Positions 28,082-30,598 of a stretch of DNA of 64,000 nucleotides are shown piece after piece (the stretch's first letter is position 1; every line of letters begins with the position of its first letter). Under the pieces are notes generated by a model. That model had not been told where the DNA came from. It ran no database searches and worked only from the letters and a program-made list of their open reading frames with translations. Source of the DNA: Rubrobacter calidifluminis (GTDB lineage Bacteria; Actinomycetota; Rubrobacteria; Rubrobacterales; Rubrobacteraceae); contig NZ_JAQKGV010000002.1 in the NCBI RefSeq assembly GCF_028617075.1, positions 62,001 through 126,000 on the forward strand, written 5' to 3'. Position numbers and translations under genes: made by a program.

Positions 28082-29164
28082 ATGAGAGTAGGGATAGTCG
28101 GTCTGCCCAACGTAGGAAAATCCACGCTGTTCAACAGCCTCACCCGGGCGGGAGCGGAGGCGCAGAACTATCCGTTCACCACGATAGAACCCAACCTGGG
28201 CGTCGCCGCCGTGCCCGACGACAGGCTCGACGCGCTGGCGCAGACCATGAACAGCCGCCGCAAGGTCCCGGCGACGGTCGACTTCGTCGACATAGCCGGG
28301 CTCGTGCGCGGGGCGAGCCGGGGCGAGGGGCTCGGGAATCAGTTCCTCGGGCACATCCGCGAGTGCGACGCGATAGCCCACGTGGTGCGCTGCTTCGCCG
28401 ACGAGAACGTCTCCCACGTGCACGCGGGCGTGGACCCCGAGGGCGACATAGAGACGATAAACACCGAGCTTCTGCTCGCCGATCTCGCGACCGTGGAGCG
28501 CAGGATCGAGCGCGTCTCGCGTGCGGCCAAGAGCGGCGAGAAGAGCCTGGTCGAGGAGGCCGCCGCGCTCGAGCGGCTGCGCGAGCACCTCTCCGAGGGA
28601 AACCCGGCGCGCACCTTCCCGGAACGGGAGCCCGTCGAGGAGGCCTTACGGACGCTCATCACCGCCAAGCCCACCCTGTACGTGGCCAACGTGGACGAGG
28701 ATTCGCTCGCGGAGGGGGATGCCTACAGCGCCGGGGTGGAGAAGGTGGCGGCGCGCGAGGGTGCGGAGGCCGTGCGGCTCTCGGCGAAGCTGGAGGACGA
28801 GATCGCCGGTCTCTCGCCGGAGGAGGCCGGGGAGTACCTCGCGATGCTCGGCGTCGGCTCCAGCGGGTTCGAGGAGTTCGTGCGGGCGGCGTACCGGCTG
28901 CTCGGTCTCATAACCTTCTTCACCGCCGGGGAGAAGGAGAGCCGGGCCTGGACCGTTCGCGAGGGGGCGACCGCCAGGGAAGCTGCAGGCAGGATCCACT
29001 CCGACATGGAGAAGGGCTTCATCGCCGCCGAGGTCGGTCGCTGGGACGACGTCGTCGAGGCCGGATCGTGGGCGAAGGCCCGCGAGGAGGCGAAGGTCCG
29101 GCTCGAGGGCCGCGACTACGTCGTGAGAGACGGCGACGTGATGCTGGTTCGCTTCAACACGTGA
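28082..29164 (+). CDS. ychF: YchF/Ola1-type P-loop ATPase
   Basis: A 360-aa universally conserved Obg-family P-loop protein that prefers ATP and associates with ribosomes. The P loop GLPNVGKSTLFNSLT (residues 7-21), NYPFTTIEPNLG (switch I), DFVDIAGLVRGASRGEGLGN (switch II), and the NVDE-type specificity motif (YVANVDED) are all present, followed by the coiled-coil and C-terminal TGS domain (LITFFTAGEKESRAWTVREG ... DYVVRDGDVMLVRF). Its TGA overlaps the ATG of the next gene (TGATG), so the selenoprotein-like gene is probably co-expressed. Confidence 0.96.
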   Translation: MRVGIVGLPNVGKSTLFNSLTRAGAEAQNYPFTTIEPNLGVAAVPDDRLDALAQTMNSRRKVPATVDFVDIAGLVRGASRGEGLGNQFLGHIRECDAIAHVVRCFADENVSHVHAGVDPEGDIETINTELLLADLATVERRIERVSRAAKSGEKSLVEEAAALERLREHLSEGNPARTFPEREPVEEALRTLITAKPTLYVANVDEDSLAEGDAYSAGVEKVAAREGAEAVRLSAKLEDEIAGLSPEEAGEYLAMLGVGSSGFEEFVRAAYRLLGLITFFTAGEKESRAWTVREGATAREAAGRIHSDMEKGFIAAEVGRWDDVVEAGSWAKAREEAKVRLEGRDYVVRDGDVMLVRFNT

Positions 29165-29820
29165 TGGTGCCGTTCGCGCGGCCGGAGAAGCCGCTCTCCG
29201 AATGCCGGGTCGCCCTCGTCTCGACCGGTGGGGTGCACCTGCCGGAGCAGCCCCGCTTCGACATAGACGACCCCGCGGGCGACTGCTCGTACCGCGAGAT
29301 CCCGGCCGGGGCAGAAGAGCTCACCTGGACCCACGCCTACTACCCGCGTCCGGGACGGCCCGTGGAGGACCTCGACAGCGTCTTCCCGCTCTGGACCCTG
29401 CGGAAGCTCGCGGAGGAGGGTGTGGTGGGAGAGCTCAACCGGAGACACTTCAGCTTCATGGGGGCGATCCACGATCCCGCCCCGCTCGCAGGAGAGACCG
29501 CTCCCGAGGTGGCCGGGAGACTGCTCCGGGATTCGGTCGACGCCGTACTCCTGACCCCTTCCTGACCGCTGTGCCACCGGTCCGTGGGGCTGGTAGCACA
29601 GGCGATAGAGGGACGTGGGATTCCGACGGTCACCCTCGCGATGGAGGAGGGGGTCGAAGCCCCCAGGGTGGCCCGGGTGCCCTTCCCTTACGGGTTCCCG
29701 GCGGGGGAGCCCCACGACGCACGCAGGCACCGGGAGGTCGTTCTCGCCGCGCTCGCGCTGCTCTACGAGCTCGACGCTCCCGGCGAGCTCAGGCTCCCTT
29801 TCCGATGGAGCGGGCCGTGA
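29164..29820 (+). CDS. GrdB/PrdB-family reductase subunit B-like protein, predicted selenoprotein with in-frame TGA
   Basis: Read through the TGA at 29563-29565 this is a 218-aa protein of the glycine/sarcosine/betaine/proline reductase selenoprotein B family. The first 133 residues contain EELTWTHAYYPRPGRPVEDL, FPLWTLRKLAEEGVVGELNR and HFSFMGAIHDPAPL, typical of the short GrdB-like proteins; after DAVLLTPS comes TGA, then PLCHRSVGLVAQAIEGRGIP and a conserved C-terminal region (RVPFPYGFPAGEPHDARRHR). Residue 134 is therefore in a U-x-x-C arrangement (Cys137) exactly where family members carry Sec or Cys. A SECIS-like hairpin follows. The alternative, a nonsense pseudogene, is less likely because both halves are otherwise intact. 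ATG 29164 overlaps the ychF stop. Physiological role unknown; no grdA/grdC partner is adjacent. Confidence 0.8.
29566..29601 (+). promoter_or_regulatory. Candidate bacterial SECIS element
   Basis: Starting 8 bases after the TGA, CCAC (29574-29577) pairs with GTGG (29584-29587) around a six-base loop CGGTCC, whose GGTC matches the GGUC apical loop of the E. coli fdhF SECIS. An alternative longer fold pairs CTGTGC (29569-29574) with GCACAG (29596-29601) perfectly, extended by ACC/GGT, with a loop that starts GGTCC. Either exposes GGUC close to the UGA, as needed for SelB recognition. Confidence 0.6.
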
Positions 29821-29905: not shown

Positions 29906-30598
29906 TTGAGCATAATATTTCTGTTCGTTGGGGTCTTTCTGGCCGTGTTCTTCCTGTTCTTGCTGCCTGTGATCTTCTCTTTGCAGGCCGTGGGTAGCCT
30001 CTTCGTCTACCCCAGACAGCTCGCCGCGATGTTCGGGAACAGGATACTCAGGCGCAACCACGCCCTCGAGCATGCCACCATAGCGGTGATGATGGAGCGG
30101 GAGCCCGGCCGCAGGCTCAATGGCTTCTCCACCGACGAGGGGTTCTTCGTTCAGGGTGTGCGCTCGATCGAGGAGGTCGAGAGCGCCGTGCGCGAGGCGC
30201 TCCAGCGCCTGAAGCGGGGCGAGAGGAGGCTCGCCATCCACCGCAACTGCGGCACTACGATCGTCGCGGCGAACCTGCTCGCTGCAGTCTTCTTCCTCAT
30301 CGCGCTCGGCGTGGGCATATACCTGGGTGGCCAGGGTCTCTACGCCATGATCGTGCTCGGGGTCTTGCTCTCCTTCCTGCTCAGGGTGCCGTTCAGCCTC
30401 TTCCTGCAGCGGTTCGTGACCACCGACGCCGACCTCTCCAACGCCGAGGTCGGCTGGGTCGATCCCGCCCGACCGCAAGAGCTGCGCGCCGGTATCCTCG
30501 GCATGCTGCTCGCGGCCACCACCGTCAAGGTTTGGGTCTTCCACACCGATCCTGAGGCCGTCGAGTTCGTCCCCGACGACGAGACGATAACCCGCTAG
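29906..30598 (+). CDS. DUF6391-like membrane protein with HxxEH motif
   Basis: A 230-aa membrane protein: a hydrophobic N-terminal segment (IFLFVGVFLAVFFLFLLPVI), a soluble part with RRNHALEHATIAVMMEREPG, then two adjacent transmembrane segments (NLLAAVFFLIALGVGIYLGG, YAMIVLGVLLSFLLRVPFSL) and a short C-terminal tail. The NHALEHATI block is characteristic of a conserved uncharacterised family (I recall DUF6391). HALEH reads as an HxxEH zinc-type motif, but catalysis is unproven. TTG start with weak ribosome site; a TATACT -10 lies about 50 bases upstream (29852-29857). Confidence 0.7.
   Translation: MSIIFLFVGVFLAVFFLFLLPVIFSLQAVGSLFVYPRQLAAMFGNRILRRNHALEHATIAVMMEREPGRRLNGFSTDEGFFVQGVRSIEEVESAVREALQRLKRGERRLAIHRNCGTTIVAANLLAAVFFLIALGVGIYLGGQGLYAMIVLGVLLSFLLRVPFSLFLQRFVTTDADLSNAEVGWVDPARPQELRAGILGMLLAATTVKVWVFHTDPEAVEFVPDDETITR

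Follow-up and report, generated by a model that had tools for sequence, protein, structure and literature searches.

A predicted UGA-encoded selenocysteine in a stand-alone PrdB-like protein of Rubrobacter calidifluminis and its relatives

The window analysed here (the whole 64,000-nucleotide stretch of the Rubrobacter calidifluminis genome) contains a frame that begins with an ATG at 29164, ends with a TGA stop at 29818-29820 and is interrupted by a single in-frame TGA, at codon 134. The motif around this codon is DAVLLTPS-U-PLCHRSVGL, in which a second cysteine, at residue 137, completes a UxxC arrangement. An earlier note on this DNA had described the 218-codon frame, the TGA at 29563 (residue 134) within DAVLLTPS-U-PLCH, the U-x-x-C motif, the CCA anticodon of the tRNA-Trp in the window and an overlap with ychF, and a re-reading of the sequence bore out all of these points. 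The features of the locus, numbered from the first nucleotide of the window, are as follows.

28082..29164, + strand: ychF, the upstream neighbour (identified by Pfam; order kept in 20/20 loci)
29164..29820, + strand: predicted PrdB-like selenoprotein gene, 218 codons plus stop, with UGA-Sec at codon 134
29563..29565, + strand: in-frame TGA, predicted from the orthologue codons to be read as selenocysteine, the U of U-P-L-C
29572..29574, + strand: codon of Cys137, the partner of Sec134 in UxxC, invariant in the alignment
29576..29594, + strand: predicted bacterial SECIS upper stem-loop, ACCGGUCC-GUG-GGGCUGGU, with 8 bp and a 3-nt loop, fitting the bSECIS model
29906..30598, + strand: DUF6391 gene, the downstream neighbour (Pfam PF19928; adjoining in 20/20 loci)

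The order ychF, PrdB-like gene and DUF6391 gene, all in the same direction, was kept in each of the 20 Rubrobacteraceae loci checked, and in the loci examined the gene of the DUF6391 protein was strictly linked to the other two, on their 3' side. The overlap between the first two genes amounts to one base, shared by the stop of ychF and the ATG of the PrdB-like gene (TGATG), which suggests that the translation of the two genes is coupled in Rubrobacter.

These features raise the question of whether the cell is equipped to decode UGA as selenocysteine. The genome search proposed in the earlier note, for selA, selB, selD and a tRNA-Sec with anticodon UCA, was carried out, and all four were found in R. 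calidifluminis. The tRNA-Sec, on which ARAGORN and Rfam agree, lies directly 3' of selB. Rfam matches to tRNA-Sec below the cut-off occurred in every genome and were set aside as weakly scoring ordinary tRNAs. The selD gene is located outside the window (G000:C2:170543-171460), scores above the profile cut-off and contains one TGA, in TRYSTKAG-U-ASK. We take the TGA of KAG-U-ASK to occupy the catalytic Cys/Sec position of SelD, and selD is an independent predicted selenoprotein of this genome. Within the genus, PMC1794560 lists 5 selenoproteins for Rubrobacter xylanophilus, and PMC5330540 mentions the tRNA-Sec of this species.

Orthologues of the PrdB-like gene were sought in 37 Rubrobacteraceae genomes, R. 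calidifluminis included, and were identified in 30 of them at 63-100% identity; each of the remaining seven genomes is less than 90% complete. In the alignment of homologues, which the earlier note had also proposed, codon 134 proved to be either TGA (26 of the 30 orthologues) or the cysteine codon TGC (the other four, L054, L056, L059 and L060). L059, from genome G017, has TGC at codon 134, and its single TGA sits elsewhere. Loss of the Sec trait as the explanation of the Cys forms was rejected, because selA and an above-cut-off tRNA-Sec are kept in all four genomes that carry them; selenocysteine is therefore not indispensable to the function of the protein. A maximum-likelihood tree of the wider family shows five changes of the Sec/Cys label, at least four of them forced by the starred branches, and places the Cys orthologues of Rubrobacteraceae in two separate clades. 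A second paralogue, 47-52% identical and with a TGA in LTP[IV]-U-PLCHQSV, was observed in three genomes (L127, L128 and L130, in G005, G006 and G016). The paralogues L127 and L128 retain the SECIS stem, several pairs of which are compensated, and in G005 the orthologue is the Cys form and the paralogue the Sec form.

Another important point is whether the TGA is followed by a credible SECIS element. The candidate hairpin comprises 19 nt and spans nt 14-32 when the T of the TGA is taken as nt 1. The bSECIS model specifies a loop of 3-9 nt, an upper stem of 4-16 bp, G in the first two loop positions, a distance of 16-37 nt from the UGA and a minimum free energy of at most -7.5 kcal/mol (PMC13188914). 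Here, the loop is GUG (3 nt, G first), the stem has 8 bp, the distance from UGA to loop is 18 nt and the energy is -10.4 kcal/mol, all in agreement with the model. Since a loose SECIS-like hairpin follows 8% of the 1355 TGA triplets on the two strands of this GC-rich window, a hairpin alone is weak evidence; a perfect 8-bp stem in the same register with a loop opening in GU follows only this TGA among the 1355.

Comparison of the 28 distinct Sec orthologue sequences revealed that the stem is kept in all of them (in one with 7/8 pairs) and that 99.6% of the pair cells are paired. Pair column 19/27 occurs in UG, UA and GC types, the GC type corresponding to a Ser-to-Ala codon change together with a synonymous Gly codon change; as this is the only pair that varies on both sides within the family, the covariation there represents one site and may reflect few events. 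In the wider actinobacterial set of 31 distinct hairpins, five of the eight pairs (15-31, 16-30, 17-29, 18-28 and 19-27) swap types, and an arm-shuffle control, made without control for relatedness, reached the observed pairing in 0 of 2000 shuffles. The in-stem codons CAC, CGG and CTG are invariant among the orthologues, and the flanking codons vary. The hairpin energy of the Sec orthologues ranges from -9.2 to -13.1 kcal/mol, compared with -3.0, -5.2, 0.0 and -3.5 kcal/mol in the four Cys orthologues and -1.5, -3.4 and -5.3 kcal/mol in three wider Cys homologues, all seven weaker than the threshold. The hairpin is thus present and covarying in the Sec forms and degraded in 4/4 Cys orthologues. 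This separation is clean for the orthologues and not for the whole family, because some distant Sec homologues (L108, the L109 group, L114, L116/L119, L120, L128, L129 and L130) also have a weak stem in the same register, of 0 to -7.4 kcal/mol.

Two other accounts of the TGA must be weighed against selenocysteine. The codon could be a true nonsense mutation in a pseudogene whose downstream part is decaying, or a sequencing error, and a single in-frame stop is what would be expected of an early nonsense mutation. However, 26 genomes of one family share the TGA at this very codon, in orthologues that are mostly 65-76% identical to one another, and every replacement found is cysteine, including those in the homologues L122, L135, L145, L077 and L078. 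Scattered nonsense mutations in relatives, which the earlier note had named as a sign against its reading, were looked for, and no other stop was found in the conserved region of any of the 30 orthologues. Purifying selection is equal before and after the TGA (median pN/pS 0.31 upstream and 0.33 downstream, 210 pairs). The restriction of codon 134 to TGA or Cys, together with equal pN/pS on both sides, excludes a pseudogene, and we leave this account next to no probability. Alternatively, the UGA could be read as Trp or another ordinary residue, by recoding or leaky readthrough, or could terminate a functional protein of 133 residues. UGA readthrough occurs in many bacteria, which would speak for such a reading; against it, the homologues show Cys and never Trp at codon 134, the genome encodes the complete Sec pathway and a tRNA-Sec with anticodon UCA, ordinary genes of the window such as ychF end in TGA, and the conserved SECIS stem is degraded in the Cys orthologues. 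We see only a very slight chance that this is how the codon is used. On this comparative evidence, the PrdB-like gene almost certainly encodes a selenoprotein: SelB with Sec-tRNA(Sec) would bind the hairpin and read the UGA as selenocysteine.

The earlier note had assigned the protein to the GrdB family. Membership in the superfamily held, as PF07355 (GRDB) was passed with 33.1 bits against a gathering threshold of 22, over profile positions 214-345 of 347, that is, the C-terminal part only. Assignment to GrdB proper did not hold, and the best family is the PrdB type, the short class. TIGR01917 (glycine reductase selenoprotein B) was failed with 47.6 against 602 bits, as were the cut-offs of TIGR01918, NF040794 and NF040795. 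The best NCBIfam model was TIGR04483 (PrdB; E 7e-37), the equivalog cut-off of which was also failed (127.2 vs 300 bits); clostridial PrdBs score 424.7 and 310.2 bits with this model, and the Cys orthologue L060 scores 121. In tblastn searches of plasmid records, clostridial, enterococcal and lactobacillar PrdB were 33-39% identical over 91-97% of the length, the clostridial and enterococcal proteins forming the 36-39% end at full length, and the Sec of PrdB aligned with Sec134 (AG-U-GTCHRS vs PS-U-PLCHRS).

No PrdA homologue was found in 16 Rubrobacteraceae genomes with a query that finds PrdA in both control records, even where it was unannotated in one, as well as weaker homologues of 25-28% in a control record, and no GrdA was found in 11 Rubrobacteraceae genomes, while the positive control was recovered. 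Because PrdA and GrdA are absent, the protein is, for the genomes searched, a member of the PrdB/GrdB superfamily that is neither a D-proline nor a glycine reductase. A prdA frame 48% identical to Terrisporobacter PrdA was noticed at 258990-260273 of NZ_CP007453.1 (L081), directly upstream of prdB on a Peptoclostridium acidaminophilum plasmid; it is absent from the PLSDB gene table, which is incomplete by design.

Among known systems, PrdB (TIGR04483) is the closest in having full-length homology, a similar size and UGA-Sec in U-x-x-C-H, whereas the protein described here has U-P-L-C instead of U-G-T-C and lacks both PrdA and a prd operon. With GrdB/GrdF/GrdH (PF07355, TIGR01918) it shares homology over the C-terminal half and Sec at the corresponding redox site, although it is about half as long and GrdA is absent. 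Stand-alone Roseomonas and Haematobacter plasmid proteins annotated in RefSeq as "glycine/sarcosine/betaine reductase selenoprotein B family protein" are 31-34% identical and carry CPxCH at the same site, but they have Cys and not Sec, a longer N terminus and no ychF neighbour. The ocean-metagenome "Proline reductase PrdB" is likewise of the PF07355 type, with UxxC and with Sec as well as Cys homologues (PMC1088965, PMC2398784), although these are marine metagenome sequences and the likeness is one of family description, not of residue-by-residue comparison. In the GOS data, this family includes 235 Sec and 110 Cys sequences, and PrdB with UxxC ranks with the most abundant selenoprotein families of the Sargasso Sea and GOS (PMC1088965, PMC2398784); the PrdB selenoprotein family also appears in reviews (PMC9312934, PMC13188914). 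Sec-PrdB-type UxxC proteins are already an established family, abundant in ocean metagenomes. The view that such proteins are little described, expressed in the earlier note, thus stands for the stand-alone actinobacterial form and its function but not for the family (PMC2398784, PMC1088965). In the literature searched, no paper was found under the names "PrdB-like", "proline reductase-like" or "selenoprotein B family protein".

An AlphaFold2 model based on a 26-row alignment (pLDDT 91.9, pTM 0.91) has an alpha/beta architecture in which strand 127-131 leads to Sec134, followed by helix 135-150. The N-terminus of this helix is placed in the model so that it would let the Sec134 selenolate be stabilised. 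The product would be an alpha/beta protein of 218 residues that has Sec134 and Cys137 at the junction between a core strand and the helix after it. Besides the motif, H25, D33, D35, W55, H57, R94, H95 and R168 are conserved in the orthologue alignment. A sequence search of the PDB gave no match even at E = 10, and Foldseek gave none at E <= 0.001 in either the PDB (best E 0.015) or the viral models (best E 0.065).

How far does the family extend beyond Rubrobacteraceae? A member was found in 66 of 397 Actinomycetota genomes, and 33 of the 66 lie outside Rubrobacteraceae, where roughly 358 genomes were sampled. The matches mostly contain one TGA, and a codon-level check of selected loci placed the TGA at the motif in most of them, with TGC in L122, L135 and L145. 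SelA was present in 32 of the 33 gene-bearing genomes outside Rubrobacteraceae (the exception is 80% complete) and in 14 of the 23 genomes lacking the gene that served for comparison. Two loci from two genera of one actinobacterial family, L116 (G112:C4:547417-548076) and L119 (G142:C19:14672-15331), contain two TGAs in LLAPA-U-PI-U-HQSV, a predicted double-selenocysteine UxxU form; their SECIS-like hairpin, with loop CGUGC, is located 3' of both UGAs, 26 nt from the first and 17 nt from the second, and SelA is present in both genomes.

Clustering of the neighbouring genes at 40 wider loci revealed no broadly recurrent partner gene; a metallo-beta-lactamase-fold gene was the sole recurring adjoining gene, at three related loci only. 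The largest neighbour clusters were rejected as partners, being antisense frames or the PrdB-like gene itself. At one locus of another actinobacterium (L134, G334:C126, 1196-6675, - strand), the PrdB-like selenoprotein gene is followed by selD, selA and selB, and in G373 the PrdB-like gene and selA lie on one contig, about 3 kb or less apart.

The remaining question concerns function. The protein could be a true subunit of D-proline reductase, or of a related amino-acid reductase, with a divergent pyruvoyl partner that went unrecognised; its match to the PrdB of clostridia and enterococci (36-39% identity, spanning 91-97% of the length) and the common U-x-x-C-H would fit such a role. Nevertheless, the TIGR04483 score (127, with the cut-off at 300 and clostridial PrdBs at 425 and 310), the lack of a PrdA homologue in 16 genomes with the control positive, and neighbours that are ychF and DUF6391 and include no prd genes make it improbable. 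Compatible with the explanation that we prefer, and nested within it, is the use of Sec134-Cys137 for detoxification or thiol redox (disulfide, peroxide, metal/metalloid or selenium handling) instead of for reducing a carbon metabolite. Among selenoproteins, UxxC is the customary motif for thiol:disulfide redox chemistry (PMC2398784), metabolic operon context is missing, and one actinobacterial relative is embedded in an array of sel genes; on the other side, the structure search showed no recognisable thioredoxin-like fold, and the eight conserved residues from H25 to R168 would fit a putative small-molecule pocket. We entertain this use tentatively, at well short of an even chance.

Our preferred reading, to which we assign a probability of about 0.85, combines a genuine UGA-Sec selenoprotein with a stand-alone thiol-dependent reductase. 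By analogy with PrdB, the Sec134 selenolate would attack an electrophilic substrate, Cys137 would resolve the intermediate by forming a selenenyl-sulfide, and dithiols of the cell, of the thioredoxin type, would regenerate the enzyme; on this analogy, a reductase role is perhaps somewhat more likely than not. We also lean slightly towards regarding the actinobacterial PrdB-like proteins as a separate stand-alone family (Sec or Cys, occasionally UxxU) that needs no pyruvoyl partner and would catalyse a reaction different from those of all characterised GrdB and PrdB enzymes, with Sec as the usual and probably the ancestral state.

Genes of this kind risk being cut short, or labelled as pseudogenes, in annotation. 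The locus offers a clean comparative case for the use of Sec in Rubrobacteraceae, including natural Sec-to-Cys differences accompanied by loss of the SECIS hairpin. In the sampled Actinomycetota genomes, selenoproteins are predicted for most of the PrdB-like proteins of the stand-alone kind, and the role of a "PrdB" without its partner thereby becomes directly testable.
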